This document shows positions 6,283 to 61,481 of a stretch of DNA of 64,000 bases, in pieces. Positions within the stretch are counted from its first letter, which is position 1, and each line of letters opens with the position of its first letter. A model generated the notes under the pieces. It did not search any database. It was not told where the DNA came from and was given only the letters and a program-made list of their open reading frames with translations. Origin of the DNA: Limisphaerales bacterium (lineage in GTDB: Bacteria; Verrucomicrobiota; Verrucomicrobiia; Limisphaerales; SXTU01); assembly GCA_009773355.1 (NCBI GenBank), contig WRPG01000041.1, positions 1 through 64,000 of the forward strand. The letters are read 5' to 3'. The position numbers and the translations under genes were made by a program.

Positions 6283-6581
6283 ACGGCGAATGGGGAATGG
6301 GGAATGGGGAAATGGGGCAACGGATGTTCGGACGCACGCGAGCACCCATCACCCTCTTCTCCCTCGCCCCCATCGGGGGAGAGGGCCGGGGTGAGGGGGC
6401 GGGTTGCGGAGTGGAGAGTCAGGCATATCCAAGACCAGCCCACGAAGCCTTTCCTCCCGACCTAGCGACTCGAACTACTCAACGTCTTCCCCCCTCACCC
6501 CAGCCCTCTCCCCCAGTGGGGGCGAGGGAGCCGCGCGCCGACTTCGATTGGCCCACGTCTCAACGCACGCCGCCCAAATTC
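6283..6581. repeat. Intergenic repeat: CCCTCACCC-type inverted repeat plus GGGGAAT tract
   Basis: The 299-base gap holds two things. At 6288-6318 the simple sequence (GAATGGG) is repeated four times. Arms at 6361-6399 and 6490-6528 are complementary at about 36 of 39 positions; each arm is itself a hairpin of the form CCCTCACCC...CCCTCTCCCCC...GGGGG. Related sequences lie at 30222-30361, 55076-55185 and 61299-61380. The downstream frame is open through this repeat, but its composition argues against it being coding. Confidence 0.8.
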
Positions 6582-8936
6582 GTGCCTTGCCTCTCCCCAT
6601 CTTTGTCTTTCCTGAATCTTTGGGTTCTCCTCCTCGCCCTCCCGCTTTCCGCCCAAACCTTCCGCGACCCCGCTGACCAGCCGTTCCGCCGCGCCCCGAT
6701 GTCCGTGGCCGCGCGCAGCGTGGTCATCCCGCTCGCCACAAACGTCCACCTCGCCTTCGACACCGAGACGCTCCGCTCGCACACGGCTTGGCGCGGGCCG
6801 TCGCTGAACTTGCACGGCGCGCCCTACGATGGCGCGGCGGGCCGCTTCCTCGCGGACTTCACCGGCGAATCTCTCTTCACCAACCCGCCGCTCTTCCCGT
6901 GGGCCGGCGGCAAGCCCGCGCGCAACATTCTCACCGACTTCCCGTCGAAGCCGCGCTTCCTCGGCCTCAGCACGCGCGGCGGAGTCCGCACGCTGATGTA
7001 TGAACTGCCGCTCGACGCCGAAGAAACCGTGCGCGTCCACGAGTCGCCTTCCGTGCAGTTCGTGGACGGCATGCCCGTGGTGGTGCGGCGCTTCGAGCTG
7101 TCCGCGAGTTACATGGACCTGGAGTTCACCGCGCACATGGAGGCCGGGCGCATGACCGGCATCGGCCAGAACAACGCTGCCATGGGCATCCTGCGCGAGA
7201 AGGACGTGCTGCTCACCGCGTTCCGGGGCCGCCCGTTGCTCGGCTGGAAGCCCGCAACGGGACAGGCCGACTACGTCGTCGAGCTGCTCCGCGAGAAGGA
7301 TGGTGACGCGGAGACCTTGCAGCGCCATGTGACCGGCGACGAGACGCATGCCGTCGTCCACATCCCAGCGCATCGCGGCGAAATCTCGTTTGAAGTGCTC
7401 TCCGTCGTGTGCGCCGACAAGGCCGAGGCCGAGCGCCTGCTACCCAAGTTGATTCCGGCGAAGGTGGCCCCGCCGGAGTTGGTGCGAGTCTCGGAGCCAC
7501 CCGCCAGCAAGCCGACGAATCAAGCGCCGACGCTGGTAGTCACGAACGCACCGGCGGTGCGCGAGGAAGGCGGCTTTCGCGTCGAGCTGCTCTGGAGCGC
7601 CGGTGTCCAACCGGCGATTCCCTTGCATCCGAACAACCCGCCGGTTGGACACCGGCGCTCCGCACCAGACGCGCCCATCACCGGCATGGACTTCATGCCC
7701 AACGGCGACCTTGCCTTCTGCACCGCGCGCGGCGAGGTCTTCATCCGCAGTGAGCCAGCGAACTCACCCGGCACCAACATTTATCGTCACTTCGCTCGCG
7801 GGCTTATGGAGCCGGCGGGCTTGCGCGTGTTGAGCGGTGAGATTTTCGTCGCGCAGAAGTGCGAGCTCACCCGCCTGCGCGACACGGACGGTGACGGCGA
7901 GGCGGACCTATTCGAGTGCGTGAGCCAGGCGTGGGGCTTCACCGGTGGTGCGCGGCAATTCGCCACCGGCCCGGTCGCGGACAAGGAAGGCCGGCTGCAC
8001 GTTTTCCTCGATGGACGCGGCGCGCGCTGGGAAGTCCCGTTCCGTGGCTGGGACGCGCGGTTCAGCCGCGGAGGAAAAGACTTCGAGGGCTGGGCCAACG
8101 GATTCCTCTCGCCTGGTGGTGCGCTCGCCGTGAACGGCGACGTGTTCGTCACGGACAACGCGGGACCGTGGGTGCCCGCCGCAAAACTCATTCACGTGCA
8201 GGAATCCAAGTTCCAAGGCCACCCGTCCACGCAGCCCGCGCCACAGGAGCAGTTCAAGGAGCCGAAGGAATTCGCGCCGCCCGCCGTGTGGTTTCCGACG
8301 CGGCTGGCGAAGCATGTGGCGGGCATGGCCGTCGCGCCGGAGAGCTGGGGCGCGTTTGCCGGACAAGTGCTTGTGGCTGATGGCGAGGGCGGACTGCTGC
8401 GCGTGAGCTTGGAGCAGGTCAACGGAGAGTGGCAGGGTGCGGCGTGGCCGTTGGTAAAGGGGTTGGGAGCGAATGCCAGCCGCTTGGCGGTGAGCGCGGA
8501 CGGGAAGCTCTATTTCGGCGGTGCGACAACGGACGGGCGCGCGCTTGTGCTGGGTCGCATGAGCCCGGCGGGACCGGCGCGTTGCGAGACGAAGACGATG
8601 AAGGCGCTGGCCGACGGCTTCGAGCTGACCTTTACGCAGCCGGTGGACTCCGCGTCCGCCGCCAAGCCCGTGAGCTACGAGGTCAGCCAGTTCAACTATC
8701 GCCATGAAATTGCCCCCGGCGCGGAGCATGACTTCGACGGCACGGCCAACCGATCGTCGCCGTTGAAGGTGGCGGCGGCGAGCGTCGCTGCCGATGGCTT
8801 GAGCGTGCGGCTCAAGATTCCCGGCCTACGCGCGGGTTTCGTCACGAGCGTCCGCGCCGCCGGCGTGCGCAGCGCGGCTGCCCAACCGCTGCGGAGCGAC
8901 GCGTTCTTCCACACGCTGAATCAGGTGCCGAAGTGA
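6582..8936 (+). CDS. Secreted DUF6797 and beta-propeller protein
   Basis: Starting at GTG 6582, the 784-residue product begins with a signal peptide (hydrophobic core FLNLWVLLLALPLSA). Residues about 30-320 resemble DUF6797 (VHLAFDTETLRSHTAW and DFTGESLF). Residues about 365-640 form a glucose/sorbosone-dehydrogenase-like propeller (ITGMDFMPNGDLAFCT, LRDTDGDGEADL, GGALAVNGDVFVTDN). A C-terminal Ig-like region follows. In Planctomycetes and Verrucomicrobia this architecture is exported and often sits in polysaccharide loci; its activity is not established. No heme motif is present. Residues 338-360 (bases 7594-7661) are encoded by a perfect palindromic element inserted in frame between the two domains. 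The start is uncertain. Confidence 0.78.
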   Translation: MPCLSPSLSFLNLWVLLLALPLSAQTFRDPADQPFRRAPMSVAARSVVIPLATNVHLAFDTETLRSHTAWRGPSLNLHGAPYDGAAGRFLADFTGESLFTNPPLFPWAGGKPARNILTDFPSKPRFLGLSTRGGVRTLMYELPLDAEETVRVHESPSVQFVDGMPVVVRRFELSASYMDLEFTAHMEAGRMTGIGQNNAAMGILREKDVLLTAFRGRPLLGWKPATGQADYVVELLREKDGDAETLQRHVTGDETHAVVHIPAHRGEISFEVLSVVCADKAEAERLLPKLIPAKVAPPELVRVSEPPASKPTNQAPTLVVTNAPAVREEGGFRVELLWSAGVQPAIPLHPNNPPVGHRRSAPDAPITGMDFMPNGDLAFCTARGEVFIRSEPANSPGTNIYRHFARGLMEPAGLRVLSGEIFVAQKCELTRLRDTDGDGEADLFECVSQAWGFTGGARQFATGPVADKEGRLHVFLDGRGARWEVPFRGWDARFSRGGKDFEGWANGFLSPGGALAVNGDVFVTDNAGPWVPAAKLIHVQESKFQGHPSTQPAPQEQFKEPKEFAPPAVWFPTRLAKHVAGMAVAPESWGAFAGQVLVADGEGGLLRVSLEQVNGEWQGAAWPLVKGLGANASRLAVSADGKLYFGGATTDGRALVLGRMSPAGPARCETKTMKALADGFELTFTQPVDSASAAKPVSYEVSQFNYRHEIAPGAEHDFDGTANRSSPLKVAAASVAADGLSVRLKIPGLRAGFVTSVRAAGVRSAAAQPLRSDAFFHTLNQVPK
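7594..7661. repeat. Perfect 23-bp inverted repeat inserted in frame in the DUF6797 gene
   Basis: The arms at 7594-7616 and 7639-7661 are perfectly complementary (core GAGCGCCGGTGTCCAACCGG) around 22 bases. The element keeps the reading frame and codes for a Pro-rich linker containing SAGVQPAIPLHPNNPPVG. A relative with the same outline (GGAGCGCAGGTGTCCAACCTG) lies between genes at 47948-48014. Confidence 0.88.
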
Positions 8937-49551: not shown

Positions 49552-49937
49552 GCTTGAAACGGTGGGTAAACCGTCACGGCGATCGTCGCCCTGAGTGCCG
49601 TGACGCGGGCCAAGGTTGCGGGTGAAATCTTGAGCGCGAGGGCTGGCTGCGTGTTGCCCGAAGCGATTCCGATGTCGAAAGTTCTTCGGCTGGCTTCGCT
49701 CCAAAGCCTAGCCACATTGGGCGGCATTGCCTCGAGCAGGTCGCAGAAGCGCGCGAGCAGTTGCTCCGGCGTCCGACGCGTGGTGACCAACTCCAACGCG
49801 GTTAGGAACTCCGCTCCCTGGCGGCCGCAGTAGAGCACGCTCACTTTCCTGTTCCCAAAGGACTTCACAAATCCGGTGAGGTCAGTTTTTGAATGCACTT
49901 CCAAATCCACGTTCAGAAACTGTGGTGGCGCGCTCAT
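49548..49937 (-). CDS. Uncharacterised 129-aa protein, copy 2 of a pair between sulfatases
   Basis: This protein is not recognised. It is soluble, has no signal and shares roughly three quarters of its residues by eye with the 131-aa gene at 51388-51783 (for example APPQFLNVDLEV, RKVSVLYC, RRTPEQLLARFCDLLEAMPP, RTFDIGI, LARVTAL). The alternating pattern suggests an alpha/beta fold. ATGA overlaps at both ends couple it to the sulfatases before and after, although it should stay in the cytosol while they are exported. Confidence 0.75.
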   Translation of the reverse strand: MSAPPQFLNVDLEVHSKTDLTGFVKSFGNRKVSVLYCGRQGAEFLTALELVTTRRTPEQLLARFCDLLEAMPPNVARLWSEASRRTFDIGIASGNTQPALALKISPATLARVTALRATIAVTVYPPFQA

Positions 49938-51391
49938 TGGGCTTTCTGTTTGGCCTTCTTCTTGCCATCGGCTTTCGGTGCGGGGGCTTGTGCGCCGAGC
50001 GCGGGGCCGTTGTCCGGCGGCATGGACTGGTGCCAGGCGAGCAGCGATTTGGTGAGGCGCGCGACGGTGTCCGGCTGCTGCGCGACGAGGTTCTTAGTCT
50101 CCGCGCGGTCGGTGGCGAGGTTGTAGAGCTGCGGCTGGGAGCCGTCGTAGTCGCAGAGGAGTTTCCAATCGCCTTCGCGCATGGCGAGGTCGGGCAGGCG
50201 GTCAGGCAGGTTTGGGCCGGCGGTTTTGCGGTCGGGCGGACGACGCCAGAAAATCGGCGCGGCGCGGGAGCTGGTGCTCTTGCCCAGTAGCACCGGCGAG
50301 AGGTTCTCGCCGTCGAAGGCCACATCGGCGGGCTTGGCAACTCCGGCGATGGACAGCAGCGACGGCGCGAGGTCGAAGGCCGCGAAGACGGAAGCTTCGT
50401 TGTGCGTGCCGGCTTTGCCCTTCTCGATGAGGCCCGGCCCCCATGCGATGAGTGGCGAGCGTGTGCCGCCTTCGTAAAGCGTCGTCTTCGTGCCGCGGAA
50501 CGGGCCCGCGCTGCCCGCGCCCGGCTCGGGGCCGTTGTCGGAGCAGACGAGGATGAGCGTGTTGTCGCGCAGCGCGGGCGTGGCGCGGACGTGGTCGAAG
50601 AGCTTGCCGAGCTGGCGGTCCATCGCTTCCAGCACGGCGAGGTAGAGGCCGCGCTTGCCTTCGCGCCACTGGTCCACGGGCGGCCAAAACGGACTGTGGA
50701 CGTCGTCGGGCCAGAGGTTCACGTAGAACGGTTTCCCGGCGGTGGCGGCGCGGTTCATGAAGGGAATCGCCGCGTCCACGAAGCCGCTGGTGATTTGCGA
50801 GCGCTGCATCCAGGTGACGAGCTTGCCGAGCCGCTCGGCGTCGGCCCAGATGCGGCCGGGCTGGGTGTCGCCGGGCTTGAGCGTGAGTGGCAGGAGCTTC
50901 GCGCCCATGCCCTCGAAGTTCGTGAGCGACTCGTCGAAGCCGTAATCTGAAATCGGCGGTGCGTCGTCCACGTCGCGCTGGCCGCCGAGGTGCCACTTGC
51001 CGAAATGACCGGTGGCGTAGCCGCTCTGCTGGAGCAGGCGCGCGAGCGTGGGGGCCTTCGGATCAAGCCACTGCGCGACGCCGCGACGCTCGTTGTCCGC
51101 GCGGTTGTTGAGGAACGACGTGATGCGCCAGCGGTGCGGATATTGCCCGGTCACGAGCGCGCACCGCGACGGCGAGCAGATGGGCGCGTTGACGTAGAAC
51201 TGCGAGAAGCGGAGGCCCTCGGCGGCGAGGCGGTCCACATTGGGCGTCTTCGCGTCCTTGTTCCCGAAGCATGAGAAATCGCCCCAGCCCATGTCGTCAA
51301 TGAACACGAGGATGATGTTGGGGCGCGGGGCGGCGTTGGATTGGCCACAAAGAACGCAAAGGAGCGCAAAGAGGGCGACGGCCGGTTTCAT
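49934..51391 (-). CDS. Sulfatase (arylsulfatase A-like)
   Basis: The 485-residue sulfatase has C72-S-P-S-R76 in PICSPSRCALVTG, metal site FIDDMGWGDFSCFG (30-43), KWHLGGQRDVDD and CSDNGPEPGAG. The signal peptide core (VALFALLCVLCGQSNA) derives in part from the ACGCAAAGGAGCGCAAAG repeat. The subfamily differs from the sulfatases on both sides (one iduronate-type). The Lys-rich tail (KADGKKKAKQKAQ) recurs in this window. ATGA overlaps join it to the 131-aa gene (upstream) and the 129-aa gene (downstream). Confidence 0.93.
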   Translation of the reverse strand: MKPAVALFALLCVLCGQSNAAPRPNIILVFIDDMGWGDFSCFGNKDAKTPNVDRLAAEGLRFSQFYVNAPICSPSRCALVTGQYPHRWRITSFLNNRADNERRGVAQWLDPKAPTLARLLQQSGYATGHFGKWHLGGQRDVDDAPPISDYGFDESLTNFEGMGAKLLPLTLKPGDTQPGRIWADAERLGKLVTWMQRSQITSGFVDAAIPFMNRAATAGKPFYVNLWPDDVHSPFWPPVDQWREGKRGLYLAVLEAMDRQLGKLFDHVRATPALRDNTLILVCSDNGPEPGAGSAGPFRGTKTTLYEGGTRSPLIAWGPGLIEKGKAGTHNEASVFAAFDLAPSLLSIAGVAKPADVAFDGENLSPVLLGKSTSSRAAPIFWRRPPDRKTAGPNLPDRLPDLAMREGDWKLLCDYDGSQPQLYNLATDRAETKNLVAQQPDTVARLTKSLLAWHQSMPPDNGPALGAQAPAPKADGKKKAKQKAQ

Positions 51392-51783
51392 AATTTGGAC
51401 GGATAGACGGTAATGGCGATGGTTGCGCCAAGTGCCGTAACTCTCGCCAATGTCTTGGGCGAAATGCGCAACGCGAGGTGTGGCTGCGCGTCGCCAGATT
51501 GGATGCCGATGTCGAACGTTCGCTGATTCGCCGCTCGCCAAAGGTTCGCCGCGCTGGGCGGCATCGCTTCGAGCAGGTCGCAGAAGCGCGCGAGCAGTTG
51601 CTCCGGTGTTCGGCGCATTGTGACCAACTCCAGAGCGGCGAAGAACGCCGCTCCCTGGCGGTCACAGTAGAGCACGCTCACTTTCCTGGTTCCGAAGGAT
51701 TTCGCAAATTCGGCGAGGTCAGCTTTTGAAAGCACTTCCAAATCCACGTTCAGAAACTGTGGTGGCGCGGGTTCTGGCTTCAT
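51388..51783 (-). CDS. Uncharacterised 131-aa protein, copy 1 of a pair between sulfatases
   Basis: This is the paralogue of the gene at 49548-49937, with a four-residue longer start (MKPEPAPPQFLNVDLEV). The conserved block RRTPEQLLARFCDLLEAMPP is the longest identical stretch. Features are the same: no signal, no membrane segment, no known motif; two Cys (YC and FC) are conserved in both copies. Overlaps of four bases at each end fix the start at ATG 51783. Its position within a sulfatase operon is the only hint of function. Confidence 0.75.
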   Translation of the reverse strand: MKPEPAPPQFLNVDLEVLSKADLAEFAKSFGTRKVSVLYCDRQGAAFFAALELVTMRRTPEQLLARFCDLLEAMPPSAANLWRAANQRTFDIGIQSGDAQPHLALRISPKTLARVTALGATIAITVYPSKL

Positions 51784-53249
51784 TGCTTCTTGGCCTTGGC
51801 TTTTCCCTGCTTGGGCTGGTCACCGATTTCGGCCTTGGGGCCGTAGCTGTTCGGGTCGCTCAAGCGGCGCGGCTCGGCGAAGTGCTTTTGCTGGTCGCCC
51901 TGGGATTTCATCCATGCGTCGAGGTCGGCGCGGAGGGCGGTGAGCTTCGCGACGTGCTGCGGGTCGGCGGCGAGGTTGCGCTGCTCGGCGGGGTCGGTGG
52001 CGAGGTCGTAGAGTTCCTCGGCGGGGCGGGCGTGGTAGCGCTTGAGGAGGGCGGCGGCCTGCGGGTCGGTCTGCGCGGCGGTTTCCCACGTGGAGAAGAA
52101 GGCGCGCTGGCCGAGGCGGCCGGCGACGAGGTCAATGTGCGTGGTGAACGCGAACTCGGGGTGCAGGTTGCGGATGTATTTCCAGCGGTCGTCGCGCACG
52201 GCGCGGGCGGGATAGACATTGAAACGGTTGTCGTTGGCGTGCGTGGTGAAGATGCGGTCGCGGTGCTGGCTGGCCTGCCCGCGCAGCACGGGGAGGAAGG
52301 AGCGGCCGTCAATGTTCGCGGGTGCCTTGCCACCGGCGGCTTCGAGCAGCGTGGGCAGGAGGTCCACCCATTGCACCATCGCGTCGGTGCGGACGCCGGG
52401 TTTTACCACGCCAGGCCACGCGACGATGAGCGGCACGGCCACGCCGGACTCGTAGAGGTTCCACTTGCCGAACGGCCACTGCGCGCCGTGGTCGGCGGTG
52501 AAGAGCAGGAGCGTCTCGTGCGGCAAAGTTGCCTTCACCGCATCGAGCACAAGGCCAAGGTCGGTGTCGGCTTTGGTGACGGCGGCGGCGTATTTCGCGC
52601 GCCAGACGCGGGTGGCGGGGGTGTCAATGCTGCCGGCGGGCAGCGGGAGTTTCGCGGGGTCGTAGCCGGAGGTTTCCTCCGGCCACGGGACGTGCGGCCA
52701 GTTGCTGCCAATCATCAGACAGAGCGGCCTGGCGCCGGTGCGCGGGCGGGACTTCAGCCACGCGACGGCGTTGGTGATGGCCGCGTGCTCGTGGAAAGTG
52801 TCATTCGCGAAATGGTCGAAGCCGTAGTCCGCCGTGTGCCGGTAGTGCGAGACCTTGCCGAACGCGACGACTTCGTAGCCCAGCGCCTTGAGATACGCCG
52901 GCCATTTCTTCAGCTCGGCGCGCGGCTTGGAGTGGTTCGCCTCCGCGCCGTTGCGGGCGGGCATCAGGCCGGTGAGCAGGGCCGCGCGGCTGGGCGCGCA
53001 GCTTGGCGAGGCGACGTAGGCGCGCGTGAAGGTCATCCCCGCGTCCGCGAGCCGTTGCATGTTCGGCGTGCGGATGCCTTGGCCACCGTAGGGCGTGGAG
53101 TCGAGCTGCCCCTGATCGTCGGTGAGGAAGACGACGAAGTCGGGGCGCGCGGCGGCGAAGCCATTCAACGCAAAGGCGCAGAGGGCGCAGAGGAGCGCGG
53201 AGAAAACAGCCAAGCGGATGGCTGTTGGGCTGGACGGGGCAATTGTCAT
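51780..53249 (-). CDS. Sulfatase (heparan-N-sulfatase or arylsulfatase type)
   Basis: The 489-residue sulfatase has C84-A-P-S-R88 in SPSCAPSRAALLTG, metal site LTDDQGQLDSTPYGG and FTADHGAQWPFGKWNLYE. WPHVPWPEE and the DWRKY-like RDDRWKYIRN segment point to the sulfamidase-like group. The signal core (LAVFSALLCALCAFALNGF) is encoded by the CGCAAAGGCGCAGAG repeat. ATG 53249 is chosen; the frame extends to 53396 but without protein-like sequence. It is the first gene of the five-gene operon; its stop overlaps the 131-aa gene. Confidence 0.92.
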   Translation of the reverse strand: MTIAPSSPTAIRLAVFSALLCALCAFALNGFAAARPDFVVFLTDDQGQLDSTPYGGQGIRTPNMQRLADAGMTFTRAYVASPSCAPSRAALLTGLMPARNGAEANHSKPRAELKKWPAYLKALGYEVVAFGKVSHYRHTADYGFDHFANDTFHEHAAITNAVAWLKSRPRTGARPLCLMIGSNWPHVPWPEETSGYDPAKLPLPAGSIDTPATRVWRAKYAAAVTKADTDLGLVLDAVKATLPHETLLLFTADHGAQWPFGKWNLYESGVAVPLIVAWPGVVKPGVRTDAMVQWVDLLPTLLEAAGGKAPANIDGRSFLPVLRGQASQHRDRIFTTHANDNRFNVYPARAVRDDRWKYIRNLHPEFAFTTHIDLVAGRLGQRAFFSTWETAAQTDPQAAALLKRYHARPAEELYDLATDPAEQRNLAADPQHVAKLTALRADLDAWMKSQGDQQKHFAEPRRLSDPNSYGPKAEIGDQPKQGKAKAKKQ

Positions 53250-53459
53250 GAATGAGCGAAGTCTCCCGCACGCTGGAAACGGCGTCCAGCGCCACGTCAT
53301 GCGGCGGAACCACTTTTGGCTATCGGCATTCCACCGGCTACGCATCGTAGGACAGCGCGTCCCGCCTGTCCGACCGATTTCGAATCTCCCGCTCAAGCGG
53401 TTTACGCTGAATGGATGTCAGGCCAGAGGCACTGACCTACTTTGGCCTTCCCCGGAGCG
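53250..53459. other. Intergenic stretch with one short hairpin
   Basis: No gene is visible. A hairpin with arms GGACAG at 53350-53355 and CTGTCC at 53366-53371 surrounds CGCGTCCCGC. It is upstream of the sulfatase operon and downstream of the sulfatase at 53460-54932, so a promoter for the operon is expected, but no clear boxes are seen. Confidence 0.5.
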
Positions 53460-54932
53460 CTAATTCTTCCCCAGGTCATTATCCCGCACGGCACGGAGCT
53501 TGACGGCGAGCTTGGCCTTGAACTCCGCCACCACGCCCGCGAACTCAGGCTTTCCGGCGAGGTTGGTGTATTGCTTCGGGTCTTTGACCATGTCGAACAG
53601 CTCCACGCCGAGCGAGGCGTCCTCGGCGTATTGGAGGTATGCCCACTTGTCCTCGCGCAGCAGGAAACCCTTGCTGGACGGCGCGACGCTGAAGGCGGCT
53701 TCGCGCACGGAATGCTTCGGATCGTCGAGCAAGCGGGAGATGTTCTTGCCCTGGAGGCGCGCGGGCACTTCGAGGCCGCACAGGCTCGCGACGGTCGGAT
53801 ACAGGTCGAGCAGCTCGACGAGCGAATGGCACACGGCGGGTTTCTTCCCCGGCACCTTGATGATGAGCGGGACCATCGCGGACTCGTCGCGGAGGCTGAC
53901 CTTGGCCCAGAAGTCGTGCTCGCCGAGATGATAGCCGTGGTCGCTGGTGAAGATGACGATGGTGTTGTCCGCCTGGCCGGACTGCTCCAGCGCGGCGAGC
54001 ACCTTGCCCACCTGCGCGTCCATGTAGCGGACCGCGGCGTAGTAACCGCCGACGGCCTTGCGCTGGCGGCGCTCGTCCATCTTCATGTTGAGGCTGGTCT
54101 TGTAGTTGATGCCGGCCTTGGGGATGTCGTCCCAGTCGCCGGGAATCTTCGGTGGCAGGGGCAGCTTGTCGTAGGGTTTGAACGGCGCGTGGTAATTCGC
54201 CGGTGCGACGAACGGCACATGCGGACGCACAAAACCGACCGCGAGGAAGAACGGCTTGCCCGCATGCTGCTGAATCAACTCGATGGCCTTCGTCGCCGTT
54301 TTGCCATCCGAGTGAACCGAGTCGTCGCCCTCGGCCTCGACCACGACGAACGTGTTTCCGCCCACGACGGGGCGCTTGCCGTCGGGATTGCCTTCGAGCG
54401 TCTCGCCGACGCCCTTGGCCTTCCACTCGGGGCCGGGGCTGTTGAACTTCTCCGTCCACGACGCCGGGTCGTCCGCGCCGTCGCCGTGGTTCGTCTTCTC
54501 CGGGTCGCCGCCCTCCTCGATGCCGCCAGGCACGCCCATGTGGTAGATCTTGCTGACGCGCGCGGTGTAATACCCGTTGTTCTTGAAATGCTGCGTCCAC
54601 GTCGCGCGCTCGCCGATGGCCGGGCGCGGGCTGGTGTAGCCGAGCACGCCCGTCGCGTGTGGGTAGTAGCCCGACATGAACGACGCCCGCGACGGCCCGC
54701 AATAAGTCCCCTGGCACAACGCCCGCGTGAACCGCGTGCCCTGCGCCGCGAGCCGGTCAATGTTCGGCGTCTTGCAGAGGGTGTTGCCGTAGCAGGAGAG
54801 CGCGGTGGCGGTCAGGTCATCGGAGATGATGAAGAGGACGTTGGGTTTGGCGGCGGCGAAGGAACTCAACGCAAAGACGCAGAGGACGCCAAGAAGCGCA
54901 GAGCAGAAGGCCAAGGCCCGGACGGATTTCAT
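53460..54932 (-). CDS. Sulfatase, iduronate-2-sulfatase-like
   Basis: The 490-residue sulfatase has C78-G-P-S-R82 in QGTYCGPSRASFMSG, metal site ISDDLTATALSCYG and TSDHGYHLGEHDFW. VGFVRPHVPFVAP and the choline-sulfatase/iduronate-type RDNDLGKN end are visible. The signal core (FCSALLGVLCVFALSSF) is from the CGCAAAGACGCAGAGG repeat. Residues about 135-190 are an insertion rich in Gly/Asp (EEGGDPEKTNHGDGADDP). The start is ATG 54932. It is separated by 210 bases from the next operon. Confidence 0.92.
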   Translation of the reverse strand: MKSVRALAFCSALLGVLCVFALSSFAAAKPNVLFIISDDLTATALSCYGNTLCKTPNIDRLAAQGTRFTRALCQGTYCGPSRASFMSGYYPHATGVLGYTSPRPAIGERATWTQHFKNNGYYTARVSKIYHMGVPGGIEEGGDPEKTNHGDGADDPASWTEKFNSPGPEWKAKGVGETLEGNPDGKRPVVGGNTFVVVEAEGDDSVHSDGKTATKAIELIQQHAGKPFFLAVGFVRPHVPFVAPANYHAPFKPYDKLPLPPKIPGDWDDIPKAGINYKTSLNMKMDERRQRKAVGGYYAAVRYMDAQVGKVLAALEQSGQADNTIVIFTSDHGYHLGEHDFWAKVSLRDESAMVPLIIKVPGKKPAVCHSLVELLDLYPTVASLCGLEVPARLQGKNISRLLDDPKHSVREAAFSVAPSSKGFLLREDKWAYLQYAEDASLGVELFDMVKDPKQYTNLAGKPEFAGVVAEFKAKLAVKLRAVRDNDLGKN

Positions 54933-55265
54933 GCGGAGGAGCTTAACCACGGACCCGTCCTCCGTAGCAAGACTGCGGAGGGTGGATGAGCTCGGCTTGC
55001 CACGCCGAAGTCAGCGCAGGCGGGATGGACACGGATTTGTTGGCCGCGAAAGGGCGTAGAGGGCGCAAAACCTCCTCCCTCTCCTCCTCGGTCGAGGAGA
55101 GGGCCGGGGTGAGGAGTCGAGTTCCGCCCTGCGCTGCTTCCCCGCCTCGAACGGGGAAAGGGATTGAGGGTGAGGTGTCGAGTCATTCAACCCCGGAATC
55201 AGTGTCAAGCGAATGGGGACAAGCGAATCCCAAGGCTGAATTCGTCTGACCCCATTCGTTTGCCA
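54933..55265. repeat. Repeat-dense intergenic stretch upstream of the defence cassette
   Basis: Three repeats follow each other. A 43-base unit at 54943-54985 (TTAACCACGGACCCGTCC...) reappears inverted at 61166-61208 with 41 of 43 identical. CCCTCACCC-type hairpins lie at 55076-55185 and include TTGAGGGTGAGGTGTCGAG, also inverted at 61299-61320. A copy of the GAATGGGGACAAGCGAAT inverted repeat lies at 55203-55265. No gene is visible. Confidence 0.85.
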
Positions 55266-55470
55266 TTGTCGGTTAGTTCGGGTGCTGTTCTGCGCTCCAC
55301 GTCTGCCAGACTGAGGAGTCGAAAACTATTCCTCGCGCTTGTCCCTTGCGGGCGGCGCGGCTAGTGTCAGCCCGTTAGCAGGAAAACAAACACGACCAGA
55401 AACAACTTTTTACAAAACCAATTCGCGTAGCTTCGGCTGCTGTCTGCATCGAAACCTAGGAAATTTCACG

Positions 55471-55603
55471 CAAGAGACAGCGCTTGAGATGCGCCCCACC
55501 GGGGGCGCATTGAAAGCGTTCTCTTGTGGGCCCTCCTAGGTGCCTGATGCGGGACGCAAGTAAGTGCGTCCCTTTTGATTACAGGCACCAGAGTTCCCAC
55601 AAG
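55471..55603 (+). promoter_or_regulatory. Two nested long hairpins sharing CTTG, upstream of the methyltransferase
   Basis: Hairpin 1 (55471-55526) stacks CAAGAGA with TCTCTTG-like TCTCTTG, CGCTT with AAGCG, and ATGCGCCCC with GGGGCGCAT around loop ACCG. Hairpin 2 (55523-55603) stacks CTTGTGGG with CCCACAAG, GGTGCCTG with CAGGCACC, and GGGACGCA with TGCGTCCC, followed by TTTT. They share the four bases CTTG at 55523-55526, so only one outer stem can form completely. The pair begins 185 bases before the methyltransferase start. The stretch just before (55376-55470) is AT-rich for this genome. Confidence 0.75.
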
Positions 55604-55655
55604 GACAGTCACCATACAGGGCTGATTCGCACGCGAGCGAACAATTTGGCCCTGG

Positions 55656-57017
55656 ATGACTCGCCCCAAGCAGGTCGGTTTTCGGAATCATCCCACCTAC
55701 ACGGTCGCAGAACTTTTCTGCGGCTGCGGTGGATTCTCGCGCGGCTTTGAGCTGGCGCGGCGGTTTCGCGTCGTCTTCGGTAACGACGTAAAAGAATTCG
55801 CGCTCCGCACCTTCGAGTTCAACCACACGCACGATGGCACGGCTCCGGTCGTTTTACGGCAGGACATTCGCACGGTTCCTGATGGCGACATCGCTCGCCT
55901 GCTCGAATCAAAAGGCGTTTCCAGTCTCGACTGCCTGATTGGCGGTCCACCCTGCCAGGGATTCTCCCAGATGCGCCGGAGCGAGGCACGACGCGGCTCC
56001 AAAATCGTCGGTTTCGGTGGCTACAACAAGTTGGACCAAGACGCTCGCAACGACCTCGTCCTCCGCTTCCTGGAGGTGGTCGCCGCACTGAAGCCGAAGG
56101 TCGTCGTGATTGAGAACGTCCCCCAGTTTCTGAGTCATTTCCATGACGGCAAGCGGGGGGGCATCGCGCAGCAGGTTGAAGAGGTGCTTCAGGAGCTGGG
56201 ATATCAAGTGGCGTGCGGCATCCTGAACGCCGCTGACTTCGGCGTGCCACAGTTGCGCCTTCGTGCGGTTATCATCGCATCCCGACTCGGTGCGATTGCC
56301 CTGCCGGTCCCCACTCATGGCGAACCGGACGAGCTGAGTGGCTGGAAAGGTAAGCCGTGGGTCACGGTGCGGGAGGCCATTGAAGATTTGCCTCCCGACC
56401 CGCCGCTGCATGAGCCGCTCGGCAACAGTGAAGCGAGTCAGTTTGTCAAACCGGCGGGGAACCCGTTTACGAAACAGATGCGCCGCTCAGGTTCGTTCCC
56501 GCTGAACCACGTCACTCGCCGATACAAACCACGCATCCTCGAAATCATTGCGCAGATGCGCCCCGGCGAGACATGGGACGAGGCGAGCGAACGGATGCGC
56601 AAGCGGTTCGCCGTCCTCATCGAAAAGGCGGTCACAAAAGGCGAAAGCGAAGCCCAAGCACGACGCCGACTGGAAGCTGAGGGGACAATCCAGCGAGTCT
56701 TTTACAAGCGGTATTACTGGAGCGCCTACACTCGGCTGGATTGGAGCCGGCCGGCCTTGACGATTACGGCAAACGCAAACTTTCTTGGCTCCGGACGGTT
56801 CACTCACCCGGAGTTAAATCGCGGCATCACGATGAGGGAAGCTGCACGCCTACAGTCTTTCGACGACGCGTTCACTTTCGTGACATCTGCCAGCGAGAAG
56901 CGGCTCACCGAGAATATCGGCGTTGGGATGGACATGATTGGCGAAGCCGTCCCGCCACTCCTCGCCAAGGCACTCGCCGACACCATCGCCGTCCACCTCG
57001 ACAAGCACAGGAGGTAA
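55656..57017 (+). CDS. DNA (cytosine-5-)-methyltransferase
   Basis: The 453-residue enzyme has all C5-methyltransferase motifs in order: I (AELFCGCGGFSRGF, 18-31), IV with the catalytic Cys100 (GGPPCQGFS), VI (ENVP, 153-156), VIII (QLRLRAVIIA), a long variable target-recognition region (about 205-380), IX (TMREAARLQSF) and X (GEAVPPLLAKALA). It would methylate cytosine in an unknown site. Its last two codons (AGG AGG) and stop (TAA) form the ribosome-binding site of the next gene. The three-gene set resembles a restriction-modification cassette of the LlaJI/McrBC-like sort. ATG 55656 is the first usable start. Confidence 0.93.
   Translation: MTRPKQVGFRNHPTYTVAELFCGCGGFSRGFELARRFRVVFGNDVKEFALRTFEFNHTHDGTAPVVLRQDIRTVPDGDIARLLESKGVSSLDCLIGGPPCQGFSQMRRSEARRGSKIVGFGGYNKLDQDARNDLVLRFLEVVAALKPKVVVIENVPQFLSHFHDGKRGGIAQQVEEVLQELGYQVACGILNAADFGVPQLRLRAVIIASRLGAIALPVPTHGEPDELSGWKGKPWVTVREAIEDLPPDPPLHEPLGNSEASQFVKPAGNPFTKQMRRSGSFPLNHVTRRYKPRILEIIAQMRPGETWDEASERMRKRFAVLIEKAVTKGESEAQARRRLEAEGTIQRVFYKRYYWSAYTRLDWSRPALTITANANFLGSGRFTHPELNRGITMREAARLQSFDDAFTFVTSASEKRLTENIGVGMDMIGEAVPPLLAKALADTIAVHLDKHRR
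57009..57015 (+). promoter_or_regulatory. Strong ribosome-binding site made from the methyltransferase end
   Basis: AGGAGGT at 57009-57015 is a near-perfect anti-16S match, six bases before ATG 57022. It is formed by the last two Arg codons (AGG AGG) of the methyltransferase plus the first base of its stop, so translation of the ATPase is coupled tightly to it. Confidence 0.85.
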
Positions 57018-57021
57018 AACT

Positions 57022-58527
57022 ATGAGCAACGCATCCACCATCGCCCTTGAAGCGCTCAAGAAGCTGCGTGAAAAGGAAGGGCCGACCGCCATGTTCCCGG
57101 CCGACAAGGTCTGGCTGTTTGCCTCCGAGAAACCAGACAGTGCCTACCGCCCAGGAGCCATCAATTGGCTGCGCACCAATGGCTACATTGAACAGACCGG
57201 ACGGATGGCGAACGCCGTGACCGAGGCGAGAGCAGGTAGTAAAACCCCCGAATACCGCTTCGGCCCACGGTTCAATAACGGCAATGCTAAGAATCGGGGA
57301 ACAAGCGGTCAGAGTATTGCATCCGTCGTGGATGCGTTCGCGCTTGCTTGCGATGGCCAACTTCAGACCTCTCGAACATTGCTGCTTCGGTTCGTGGCTT
57401 CGTTGCTCGCCAAACGCTTCGTCATCCTCACCGGACTTTCCGGCTCCGGCAAAACGAAGCTCGCGCAGGCGTTCGCCCGTTGGATTACGCCGGCCAGCCC
57501 GGAGTGCTTCGCTGTCGTCCCGGTAGGGGCGGACTGGACGAGCAACGAGCACATTCTCGGCTATCCCGACAACTTGAACGGCGGCTATGTCCAGCAGACG
57601 GCGCTCAAGCTCATCTTGCAGGCTGTGAAGCATCCGGACCTCCCGCATTTCCTCATCTTGGACGAGATGAACCTGTCCCACGTCGAGCGCTACTTCGCCG
57701 ACCTGCTCTCGCTCATCGAGTCAAACGAGAAAATTTGGCTCCACCACGACGACGAGGCCAAGCGCGGCATCCCCGCCCAGCTCGCGCTGCCGGAGAACCT
57801 GTTCGTCATCGGCACGGTGAACGTGGACGAGACGACCTACATGTTTTCACCCAAAGTGCTCGACCGGGCCAACGTGCTGGAGTTCCGCGTGTCGGAGTCC
57901 GACATGGTGGAGTTTCTCGACCACCCGGTTGCGCCAGACCTTGCCAAGCTCGCCGAGCCGGGAACGAACGGCGCAGCCTTTGGGAAGGGGTTCGTCGTCG
58001 CCGCCTCACAGCAGCACGACGCGGCTCTCAGCGAGGAGCAGCGGGCGCAGTTGAAGGCGGAACTGATGCTGTTTTTCAACGCGCTGGGCGAACACAACGC
58101 GGAGTTCGGATTCCGGGTGGGGAAGGAGATTGCGCGTTTCGTGCATTTTCACGAGGCGTTGTCGGGCGGTTCGCTCGACTTCCGCGCCGCGATGGACGCT
58201 CAGATTGTGCAGAAGCTGCTGCCCAAGCTCCACGGCTCGCGGAACAAGATGACCGGTCTGCTGTGGACGTTGACAGCCTTGTGTCAGGAGAACCACGCGT
58301 GGAAAGCCGAGCCGGATGAAACGAAGCGGGCCGAGGCGTTCCAGAAGTTCATGAAGGAGGTTCACGCCGCTGTTGAGGCCGGTGATGAGAAATTTGACCC
58401 GGGGCAGGTGGCGGCCAAGCTGCGCGCCGCTGGCAAGGAAGCCCACTACCCATTGAGCTTCGACAAGCTCGCCCGGATGTGGCGCGTCCTGGAGGCGAAC
58501 GGTTTCGTGAGCTTCGCGGAGGCATGA
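57022..58527 (+). CDS. McrB-like AAA+ NTPase
   Basis: The 501-residue protein has an N-terminal winged-helix-like segment (residues 5-85, ALEALKKLREKEGPTAMFP). Next comes an AAA core: Walker A GLSGSGKTKL (138-147), Walker B FLILDEMNLSHVERYF (210-225), sensor GTVNVDETTYMFSPKVLDRANV (264-285, split). The McrB signature MNxxDR is replaced by VNVDETT. This AAA_5-like group usually precedes a DUF2357 nuclease, as here. It probably loads or translocates the nuclease on DNA by NTP hydrolysis. The gene is one base from the next. Confidence 0.9.
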   Translation: MSNASTIALEALKKLREKEGPTAMFPADKVWLFASEKPDSAYRPGAINWLRTNGYIEQTGRMANAVTEARAGSKTPEYRFGPRFNNGNAKNRGTSGQSIASVVDAFALACDGQLQTSRTLLLRFVASLLAKRFVILTGLSGSGKTKLAQAFARWITPASPECFAVVPVGADWTSNEHILGYPDNLNGGYVQQTALKLILQAVKHPDLPHFLILDEMNLSHVERYFADLLSLIESNEKIWLHHDDEAKRGIPAQLALPENLFVIGTVNVDETTYMFSPKVLDRANVLEFRVSESDMVEFLDHPVAPDLAKLAEPGTNGAAFGKGFVVAASQQHDAALSEEQRAQLKAELMLFFNALGEHNAEFGFRVGKEIARFVHFHEALSGGSLDFRAAMDAQIVQKLLPKLHGSRNKMTGLLWTLTALCQENHAWKAEPDETKRAEAFQKFMKEVHAAVEAGDEKFDPGQVAAKLRAAGKEAHYPLSFDKLARMWRVLEANGFVSFAEA

Positions 58528-58528
58528 T

Positions 58529-60979
58529 ATGCCGGGACTCACTCCCAGGCCCGATGAGACGGTTGAGTGCCGGTCGTCCGATGGGCGACTGGTCGCACTC
58601 GTTGAACTCGTGCCTGAGGATGACTGGCAGGCAGCCGTTGCTGAACTCGCACCGTTGGTCCGGCTCAGTAGCCAAGAAGCCAAGGCGCAAGGAGAGCAGC
58701 CGGTTCAACTGCGCGAGAATGGCCGCTACGAATACGTGGTGCGCCCGGTGTCCGCCGCCCAGGGACAGGGTTTAAAACTGGTGGGCAATCTGGTCAGGAG
58801 CCGGAAGCGGCGCGAATCTGACCGAGACATTGGGCGCATCGAAACCGGCTCCCACTGCGGCCTGCTTCGGCTCGACATTGAGGAGGAAGGCCGTCCCGGC
58901 GAGCGCATTGCCACGGGATATGTGGAAGTTCGTTCCATCAAGGTGGGCTATCGCGACGAGTATCAGCGGATGCTGGAGTTCATTTCTGCGCAATCCAGCC
59001 AATTGCTTTTCGACGCCCGCGCCTCCGCACAGATGCCCGTTGCCCCGAAGTGGACTCGCGAGGCACCGCTGCTTCAGCAGCAAATTGAATTTCTCCGAGA
59101 AACACTCGCCTCCCGTAGCTTTGATGCCTCACTGCGGCGCATTGAGTCCTTCCCGCACCAGCAATTGCGGACGGTTACGGAGCAGCGGAGCGTCTCGCGC
59201 CCGTTTCGGCCCGGCCAGAACTTCAACCGGCAAGTCTCCAGCGGCGGGCATCGCGTGGCGCTGCTGAGTTCGCACCCACTTGCCGTGCGGTTGGCTGGCG
59301 GCGTGAGCCAGCCCAGCCTCCCCGCCCGCGCCATCGTCCAGCGCAAGCGCGACGTCACGGACACGTCTGAAAACCGGTTCGTGAAACATGCGGTGACACA
59401 GTTCCGCGATTTTCTCGTCCACGCCGCACAGGTGCTCGGGCACGAACTGGACGAAAGCTGGGTGCCGGTGCGCAACAGCGCCAAGAGCATGGCGACAAAG
59501 CTTGATGAGGTTCTGTCGCGCAGCTTTTACCGGGAGATTTCACCCCTGCGAATGTTGCCTCTCGGCAGCCCGGTTTTGCAGCGCAAGCCCGGCTATCGGG
59601 AGTTGCTGCAACTTTGGCAGCGGTTCAACGACAATTCGCAGGTGACCTGGAAGGGCGGCGAAGAGGTTTACCATGCGGGCAAGCGGGATGTGGCGACGCT
59701 CTACGAATACTGGCTGTTCTTCCAACTGCTCCGCTGGTTCTGCGGCAAGTTCAACCCCAATGGCGGTGTGCCGGCGTCGAAGCAACTCATTGAGCCGGCA
59801 AGCAAGGGGCGCTTCAACCTGCGGCTGCAACGCAACTGGACGCTCGGGCCGTTTGAAGGAGTTTACACGCGCAACCAGCGCAAGCTGTGCGCAAGATTCC
59901 ACTACAACCAGCGGTTCACCTTCATTGCCGGGCGTAACCAGGCGGGGAGTTGGACGCGTGCGATGCACCCGGACTACACGCTCACCTTTTGGCCCGCCGA
60001 CTACACGCCGGAGGAAGCCGAGCGGCAGGAACTCGCCGTCCACATCCACTTTGATTCCAAATACCGCGTGGAATCGCTTGAGGACTTGTTTGGCAAATCA
60101 TCGGAGGATGCAGATGCCGAGGAGCCGGCAGCGCGTGGAAAGGGGAATTACAAGCGTGCGGACTTGCTCAAGATGCACGCTTACCGCGATGCGATTCGCC
60201 GCTCAGAGGGAGCTTACATTCTTTATCCAGGCAGCGATGCCGACCGAAAAGGCCAAGAACAGCGGGCGAGTGAATTCCGGGGCTTCCATGAAATCCTGCC
60301 GGGGTTGGGCGCGTTCGCCATCTCGCCGGGGCCGGATGGAAAGCCCAAAGGCATGGAACACCTGAACCGGTTCCTCGATGAAGTGCTAGAACACCTGAGC
60401 AACCGCACGACGAGCCGCGAGCGCGTCAGCTATCACTTGCAGGAGGCGTATGGAGCGGAGGCGCTGGCGGAAGCTCCAGTGGAATACAAAATCAAAACGC
60501 CACTACCCGAACGGGACGCCGAGACGGGCGAGCGGTTGGTCCCACCGTCCGAGCATTCGGTGTTGGTTGGCTGGTATGAGAACGCGGACGTCCAACATCT
60601 GGAGTGGATACGCAGCAGTGGCTTCTACAACTTCCGTGCCGGTGACCGCAGTGGTTCCATCCGCATTGAGCCACGCATCGCGGGAGCGAAACACCTGTTG
60701 CTTCACACGCACGGAGGACAAGCGCACCCAGGCCTGTGGCGCATCAAACGCAGCGGCCCCCGGCTGTTCACCGCCGAGGAGTTGCTTCGGCTTGGCTATC
60801 CGCCAGCACTCAACCCAAAGGCCGATGCCATCTATGCGGTTTATGACGTGGAGCCGGACGATGCTTACGTGGGGTGGAAGTGGGATTACGCCAGCCTTCG
60901 CGGTAAGAAGGAGGGCCGACAGAGCGCGCAGCCATTCGCAGTGAGCCTCGCCGATGTGCTCGCGGTTCACCGAATCTGA
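58529..60979 (+). CDS. DUF2357 nuclease, PD-(D/E)xK type (McrC-like)
   Basis: The 816-residue protein has a beta-rich N-terminal part (about 1-290) matching DUF2357. A PD-(D/E)xK-like nuclease follows with D482 in HPDYTLTFWP, then VHIHFDSKYRVES (D509, K511). The next helix, KRADLLKMHAYRDAIRRSEG, is usual in McrC-like/PDDEXK_7 enzymes. A distinctive C-terminal domain (about 640-816) ends in a DVEPDDAYVGWKWDYASLRG segment. It is the predicted cutting subunit that works with the AAA protein, likely sparing DNA methylated by the partner methyltransferase. Confidence 0.88.
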   Translation: MPGLTPRPDETVECRSSDGRLVALVELVPEDDWQAAVAELAPLVRLSSQEAKAQGEQPVQLRENGRYEYVVRPVSAAQGQGLKLVGNLVRSRKRRESDRDIGRIETGSHCGLLRLDIEEEGRPGERIATGYVEVRSIKVGYRDEYQRMLEFISAQSSQLLFDARASAQMPVAPKWTREAPLLQQQIEFLRETLASRSFDASLRRIESFPHQQLRTVTEQRSVSRPFRPGQNFNRQVSSGGHRVALLSSHPLAVRLAGGVSQPSLPARAIVQRKRDVTDTSENRFVKHAVTQFRDFLVHAAQVLGHELDESWVPVRNSAKSMATKLDEVLSRSFYREISPLRMLPLGSPVLQRKPGYRELLQLWQRFNDNSQVTWKGGEEVYHAGKRDVATLYEYWLFFQLLRWFCGKFNPNGGVPASKQLIEPASKGRFNLRLQRNWTLGPFEGVYTRNQRKLCARFHYNQRFTFIAGRNQAGSWTRAMHPDYTLTFWPADYTPEEAERQELAVHIHFDSKYRVESLEDLFGKSSEDADAEEPAARGKGNYKRADLLKMHAYRDAIRRSEGAYILYPGSDADRKGQEQRASEFRGFHEILPGLGAFAISPGPDGKPKGMEHLNRFLDEVLEHLSNRTTSRERVSYHLQEAYGAEALAEAPVEYKIKTPLPERDAETGERLVPPSEHSVLVGWYENADVQHLEWIRSSGFYNFRAGDRSGSIRIEPRIAGAKHLLLHTHGGQAHPGLWRIKRSGPRLFTAEELLRLGYPPALNPKADAIYAVYDVEPDDAYVGWKWDYASLRGKKEGRQSAQPFAVSLADVLAVHRI

Positions 60980-61481
60980 TTTGAGGATTTAGCCGGAACG
61001 GACGCCGGCACCCGGAAACTCTGTCGCCTCTGTAGGGCTTGCTGATTCTTGAGGACGTTGAACCCAGGGCTTCACCCAGGGCTATTGTCTGGCCGCGCTT
61101 GCAGCGCTCCGGCATTCCGCCTTCGTCAGACTTCGGCGCGACGGGCACCACGTATCGGTGGGCATCCACCCTCCGCAATATTGCTACGGAGGACGGGTCC
61201 GTGGTTAAACTGCTTTGCGCCCTTTTGCGGCTAAAAGGATTTCGACACCTCACCCAAGCCAACGCGGAGTTTGGAATGCGGAGCGCGGAATGGAAAAGCG
61301 ACACCTCACCCTCAATCCCTCTCCCCGGTCGAGGCGGAGAGGGAGGATGAAGATGACCCCTCACTCCGGCTCTCCCCCGCGAAGCTGGTAGGGCCGACCT
61401 GCCGGTCGGCCGGCGTGAATCCCAGCTTGGCTGAGGCCGCGCGGCAACGCGGCCCTACCATGTTGCGGAGAGAGTTGGGCT
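60980..61481. repeat. Repeat-rich gap downstream of the defence cassette
   Basis: No gene is visible. Elements are: GGGCTTCACCCAGGGC-type direct repeats at about 61065-61085, the inverted copy of the 54943 unit at 61166-61208, the GCGCCCTTTTGCGGC simple repeat at about 61218-61232, a CCGCACT-type tract at 61270-61293, a CCCTCACCC-type hairpin at 61299-61380, and an inverted repeat with arms TGGTAGGGCCG at 61386-61396 and CGGCCCTACCA at 61450-61460. Confidence 0.8.

Follow-up and report, generated by a model that had tools for sequence, protein, structure and literature searches.

The PcaI system of Pectobacterium combines a C5-methyltransferase (M.PcaI) with an AAA+ protein (PcaIA) and a DUF2357 protein (PcaIB); in the excerpts of its description that were available, unmethylated DNA is restricted, the methyltransferase marks CCNGG and protects it, and restriction of both phage and plasmid is shown (PMC8989522). 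LlaJI, encoded by the Lactococcus plasmid pNP40, provides phage resistance with two C5-methyltransferases, an McrB-like subunit (R1) and a PD-(D/E)xK subunit (R2) (PMC1459862). A large branch of McrB proteins with an NxD motif replacing NxxD, often linked to DNA methyltransferases and to complex McrC partners with an N-terminal immunoglobulin-like β-sandwich, was delineated by Bell et al. (2024), who reported no characterized NxD member and who, focusing on the CoCoNuTs, deferred the methyltransferase-associated group (PMC11090510). Here we describe an operon of this known, little-studied McrBC-like kind of restriction–modification (RM) system in the first 64,000 nucleotides (nt) of contig WRPG01000041.1 of a Limisphaerales bacterium (Verrucomicrobiota; assembly GCA_009773355.1), a stretch referred to as the window. 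The operon is preceded by a structured leader RNA, and it is probably a PcaI/LlaJI-like system expressed through this cis-acting leader, which other restriction systems share.

The three-gene operon

As originally predicted, a C5-methyltransferase, an AAA protein and a DUF2357 protein are encoded one after the other at 55656–60979 (Table 1). The three open reading frames (ORFs) are intact and co-directional, with gaps of 4 and 1 bases, and Pfam supports each of the three assignments. The methyltransferase matches the full DNA_methylase domain and scores 161.6 bits with the NCBIfam model TIGR00675 (dcm), above its cut-off. Plausible ribosome-binding sites for the AAA gene (AGGAGG) and the nuclease gene (GGAGG) lie within the 3′ ends of the preceding genes, and the methyltransferase start codon adjoins a hairpin, with no obvious ribosome-binding site.

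The AAA protein, which matches AAA_5 (8e-6) and AAA_22 (5e-6) in Pfam, has a Walker A (GLSGSGKT), a Walker B (ILDEMN) and the VNVDETT motif, all present as the original prediction stated. All 26 aligned AAA proteins keep N267 and D269 of the stretch GTVN[VI]DETT, and VNVDETT is not a degenerate sequence; it is the NxD signature of the published McrB clade, to which we assign the protein by this motif. McrB was its only sequence match in the PDB, and the predicted model superposes on E. coli McrB of the McrBC structure 6ut6 with a Z score of 15.1 over 181 residues (21% identity), a fold score similar to those reached by many other AAA+ proteins. The model is mostly above 70 in predicted local distance difference test (pLDDT) score for residues 96–501 and mostly below 50 for residues 1–95. 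A winged helix had been proposed at the N-terminus; the low confidence of this region and the lack of any Pfam match in residues 1–115 do not confirm it. Identity to relatives is 5–21% in residues 1–115 versus 57–69% in residues 116–300, so that the N-terminal region is likely to be a swappable module, as expected of target recognition.

The third protein matches DUF2357 (5e-39) and PDDEXK_7 (7e-24) in Pfam and comprises an N-terminus that is β-rich in the model, the DUF2357 domain (residues 101–363), the PD-(D/E)xK domain (residues 390–570) and a C-terminal domain. Its nuclease motif reads P481-D482 ... D509-S-K511, and all 27 aligned sequences retain the three residues singled out in the original prediction, D482, D509 and K511. 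Residues 139–617 align with McrC (6hz4) with a Z score of 7.3 and a poor root mean squared deviation, and the model is poor at residues 514–594, around the active site. Residues 656–816 are covered by 49 of the 50 best structural alignments, nearly all of them with YTH, EVE-type or McrB N-terminal domains: YTHDC1 (Z 8.3), MJECL36 (8.1), the N-domain of S. marinus McrB (7.9) and VcaM4I (7.6), with overall Z scores of 7.3–8.3 against YTH/EVE chains on a model of moderate confidence. Sequence searches with this domain gave no profile match to EVE or YTH, and Foldseek returned no significant match for the whole nuclease, the EVE/YTH and McrC fold matches coming from a second structural aligner only. 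From its modelled fold, the C-terminal part of ~160 residues is predicted to be an EVE/YTH-like reader of modified bases.

Related loci and described systems

Among 40 genome loci with relatives, the AAA–nuclease pair is adjacent in every case where the contig is unbroken and of sufficient length, and a C5-methyltransferase homologue is found shortly upstream on the same strand in about 12, two of which (in Paenibacillus) have an LlaJI-like methyltransferase pair. The order of the three genes recurs on the Caballeronia plasmid pSBC2-5, where a 55%-identical methyltransferase is followed by AAA and DUF2357 genes. A gene for a very short patch repair endonuclease (L166, 6142–6525) adjoins this Caballeronia operon; such genes are typical of 5-methylcytosine (5mC) systems. 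At another related locus, L007, the methyltransferase runs into an Mrr-type endonuclease domain (482–2911, with a weak match to the AspBHI N-domain) and the AAA gene is cut down to a C-terminal remnant ahead of the DUF2357 gene; either the cassette has been rearranged there or the arrangement is an artefact of assembly.

Compared by description, PcaI and the window operon have the same composition, with one C5-methyltransferase, an McrB-like subunit and a DUF2357 PD-(D/E)xK subunit, whereas a leader RNA is not mentioned in the available excerpts on PcaI (PMC8989522). LlaJI also has 5mC methyltransferase genes followed by McrB-like and PD-(D/E)xK genes in a similar orientation, but differs in its two methyltransferases, its asymmetric target and an R2 of about half the length (PMC1459862). 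By analogy, a single methyltransferase would fit a symmetric target, such as the CCNGG of PcaI, in contrast to the two of LlaJI for an asymmetric site. The operon shares with the NxD clade the signature motif, the association with a methyltransferase and the additional domains of the McrC partner, including the N-terminal β-sandwich (a β-rich region in our model), although no two-component genes were seen in it. E. coli K-12 McrBC has the same AAA fold and DUF2357-PD-(D/E)xK partner, but is methylcytosine-dependent, lacks a methyltransferase and has an McrC without a C-terminal reader domain. The original prediction considered the operon unlike textbook McrBC or LlaJI. This stands in that NxD members had been left uncharacterized, and falls in that PcaI has a single methyltransferase and VNVDETT defines a published clade. 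The accompanying proposal, that of a compact restriction system whose methyltransferase protects host DNA, finds good support by analogy with PcaI, which has the same three parts, and with LlaJI, and the three genes very probably constitute a working RM system of this style. The three-gene type is thus already known from PcaI; what sets this operon apart is its leader RNA and, more tentatively, the domain resembling a reader.

Structure of the leader RNA

The leader RNA (~235 nt) lies directly upstream of the methyltransferase gene, at 55421–55655, and was missed by the original prediction, as were the extra domains of the 816-residue protein. A 280-nt stretch around the start of the methyltransferase gene folds far better than shuffled sequences do (z score −6.6). 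The core contains a UUCG hairpin, a helix P1, a helix P2 with a pseudoknotting loop and a long P3/P4/P5 arm, and ends at its 3′ side in a terminator-like hairpin, P6, followed by a U-rich tract. In an alignment of 14 copies, 94.6% of cells are paired, versus 36–53% with slid partners, a comparison in which the structure is somewhat favoured over the slid versions, because the window sequence and this same alignment served to draw it. Double changes occur in 24 of the 46 pairs. The core is a conserved, pseudoknotted fold supported by covariation.

Part of the leader can adopt a different pairing. In its 3′ part, CAGGCACC (55582–55589), which is located beyond the terminator-like hairpin, is able to re-pair with GGTGCCTG (55539–55546), and CCCACAAG (55596–55603) with CTTGTGGG (55523–55530), both as an alternative to the pseudoknotted fold. 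Of 22 copies, 21 can form an alternative helix of at least 7 base pairs, compared with 17% of shuffled sequences; cross-pairing between copies is nearly as long, which leaves its covariation support weak. The alternative pairing is compatible with a switch. A last hairpin (55617–55654) ends at the methyltransferase start codon.

Searches of Rfam gave no match to the leader in the window (E <= 5) and no plausible one at six other copy-bearing loci (E <= 1); the weak Rfam matches fall outside the element, and its assignment to a known RNA family was rejected. No description of such a leader was found in the literature, which was covered in part. Like transcription-attenuating leader RNAs and riboswitches, it combines a 5′ position, a pseudoknotted core and a terminator-like hairpin; unlike them, it has no Rfam family and heads several types of restriction system plus surface and secreted-protein genes.

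Distribution of the leader and the genes behind it

Further copies were searched for with a covariance model (R1), with which the window leader scores 170.9 bits. Its own genome contains a single full-length copy, a second match (25.7 bits) being the reverse strand at the same place; as a single copy in the host assembly, it is not a dispersed repeat of that genome. Of 387 sampled Verrucomicrobiota genomes, 29 contain a match to the model, as do 26 of the 150 genomes searched in one family; where the gene is readable, nearly every copy is sense-oriented and just ahead of an ORF. In ten genomes that encode relatives of the nuclease, a set that tests specificity to the phylum weakly, matches occurred only in G615 and, weakly, in G613, both labelled as Verrucomicrobiota bins.

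Among the genes behind the leader, those for restriction or modification, confirmed by Pfam save for one assigned by similarity (L137), are of different types. They include C5-methyltransferases (the window, L120, L179 and L007, the last with a leader 84% identical to that of the window), a complete Type ISP enzyme (L121), ResIII proteins (L138, L151), PLD-helicases (L139, L156), an HsdR-like helicase (L146), an HsdR N-terminal domain (L177), HsdM-like proteins (L162, L178, L182, L183), N6/N4 methyltransferases (L147, L149, L165, L175, L176, L181, L186, L189) and EcoRI-type methyltransferases (L135, L137).

G615, the 9 Mb metagenomic bin that contains L007, has ~14 leader copies. Restriction genes follow 10 of the 13 leaders with a readable first gene; a truncated copy (L189), not included in this count, also heads one. 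The probability of such an association by chance is below 1e-13, assuming ~60–150 such genes among 6000–8000 (gene totals estimated). This bin, which may be mixed, is unusually rich in DNA methyltransferases (17 N6_N4_Mtase and 31 N6_Mtase matches, of which some are pieces of a single gene), with many further methyltransferase loci that have no leader. In 16 leaders with an extended 3′ part, selected in part after their genes had been seen, conservation reaches or nears the start codon, and 15 of them head restriction or helicase-type defence genes.

Two G615 leaders share 97% identity, compared with 43% for the DNA upstream of them, and head unrelated genes. Leaders of this bin tend to resemble one another, and outside it the nearest neighbours are mixed, partly by gene type, a pattern that fits either shared regulation or the spread and homogenization of a leader module, two readings that these data do not tell apart.

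Several other observations concern the leader copies. In G297 and G284 (L059, L060, L070, L071, L107), the leader heads a repeated family of large secreted proteins starting with MAKAFLQKRWS, with several copies in each genome. On contig 112 of G429 (L128), a leader-like element is found ~300 nt before a CRISPR-like array, at a locus with ORFs resembling, as judged by eye, Cas1 and the C-terminus of Cas9. A phage-borne origin was considered and discarded: two viral-contig matches to a conserved 19-nt stretch overlap phage-like coding sequence, one viral-contig match is antisense to its gene, and the model match is poor or none. Inspection by eye of the ORFs around the cassette, made without a systematic search, revealed no reverse transcriptase of a retron or diversity-generating element.

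Proposed mechanism and alternative explanations

In the reading that we favour, transcription would probably begin at the 5′ end of the leader, whose pseudoknotted core ends in the terminator-like hairpin, where it may be attenuated; the leader would most likely set the output of the operon in cis, the same leader being used by unrelated restriction systems of the phylum. The methyltransferase would mark a site, probably a symmetric one, with 5mC in host DNA. The AAA protein would form an McrB-like ring driven by nucleoside triphosphate, probably GTP, and recognize DNA through its variable N-terminus, and the DUF2357 protein would dock on this ring as in McrBC, activate it and cut DNA that does not have the host mark. 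The EVE/YTH-like domain may read the state of a base, either sparing host DNA or widening the target.

Several results weigh against this reading. Most of the 40 loci with relatives, Dyadobacter among them, have no detected upstream methyltransferase, so that, on its own, the same AAA–nuclease pair may also serve as a modification-dependent nuclease; the predicted EVE/YTH-like domain could imply modified DNA as the target. An extended form of this argument makes the pair a Type IV enzyme that reads modified phage DNA through that domain, with the methyltransferase as a separate or antagonistic neighbour, and it can also appeal to classical McrBC, which reads methylcytosine. We regard it as improbable: a 5mC methyltransferase 4 bases upstream would flag host DNA for attack, PcaI and LlaJI target unmethylated DNA with the same parts, and the Caballeronia operon retains the gene order. 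On the RNA side, the minimum-free-energy fold of the leader is akin to, and not identical with, the covariation fold (the energies exclude the pseudoknot), and promoter-like sequence 5′ of it is conserved only weakly. The leader is not specific to this cassette, L007 alone of 49 related loci carrying it, and since its core also heads genes for glycosyltransferases, acyltransferases, secreted TSP3/Ig-type proteins and RadC, it is not restriction-specific.

Two explanations deny the leader its role in regulating the operon. It may be a recombination or mobility module, at which accessory genes are swapped, with the copies homogenized by gene conversion. This is rather unlikely, yet the strongest of the competing views: same-bin copies are up to 97% identical despite unrelated upstream DNA and genes, and the inverted repeat flanking the cassette is unique in the assembly, whereas the compensatory changes seen in most helices, and in the pseudoknot as well, argue for selection acting on an RNA strand that folds, and the copies with a readable gene sit almost without exception in the sense-oriented leader position, most of them with the terminator-like hairpin. 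The hairpin and U-rich tract that close the core in most copies would also suit the gene of a trans-acting small RNA, a mere neighbour of the genes behind it; several copies per genome, each ahead of a different gene, and extended copies conserved up to the start codon make this the least probable of the explanations considered. Beyond the window, the cis-acting leader of our preferred reading could be a new structured class of Verrucomicrobiota RNA that exerts one RNA-level control, perhaps in response to one signal for all copies, over unrelated RM systems and some surface genes, the defence arsenal being tuned together and the window operon being one member of the regulon; we propose this tentatively, judging it somewhat less than an even chance.

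Features of the locus

A 52-base-pair (bp) inverted repeat brackets the operon and has only these two copies in the assembly (E <= 0.001); it could be the mark of an inserted or invertible segment. Just 3′ of the nuclease gene, at 61063–61108, there is a sub-threshold match to the Acido-Lenti-1 RNA (23.6 bits, gathering threshold 37, E 0.04). On the minus strand, at 49934–54950, three neighbouring genes appear by eye to be sulfatase-like; groups of such genes are typical of polysaccharide-degrading Verrucomicrobiota or Planctomycetota.

Table 1. Coordinates in the window of the operon, its leader RNA and the flanking repeat.
Feature	Position	Strand	Evidence
C5-cytosine DNA methyltransferase, 453 residues	55656..57017	+	Pfam PF00145 (7e-50); TIGR00675 dcm; motif PPCQ
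McrB-type AAA+ GTPase with NxD motif (assigned by motif), 501 residues	57022..58527	+	AAA_5/AAA_22; PDB and fold match
AAA N-terminal region, likely DNA-recognition module	57022..57366	+	Low identity; no Pfam match; low model confidence
McrC-type nuclease, 816 residues	58529..60979	+	DUF2357, PDDEXK_7; D482/D509/K511; model, McrC match
Nuclease C-terminal domain (residues 656–816), predicted EVE/YTH-like (structure only)	60494..60976	+	Structural alignments
Leader RNA core	55421..55577	+	Fold z score; 14-copy covariation; model R1 score
Leader RNA 3′ part	55578..55655	+	Alternative helices; start-codon hairpin; alignment of 16 extended leaders
52-bp inverted repeat, left arm	54937..54988	+	92% complementary to right arm
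52-bp inverted repeat, right arm	61163..61214	-	92% complementary to left arm

Implications

The cassette adds a member to the methyltransferase-associated McrB clade, whose NxD members were uncharacterized, and its predicted fold points to an RM nuclease with a built-in reader of modified bases. The leader RNA matters more than the protein cassette. Restriction systems are usually regarded as regulated singly, by C-proteins, promoter methylation or antisense RNA. If the shared role of the leader holds true, one RNA placed before Type I-like, Type II, Type III-like and ISP systems would represent a testable shared control point of restriction, and a new class of structured RNA.

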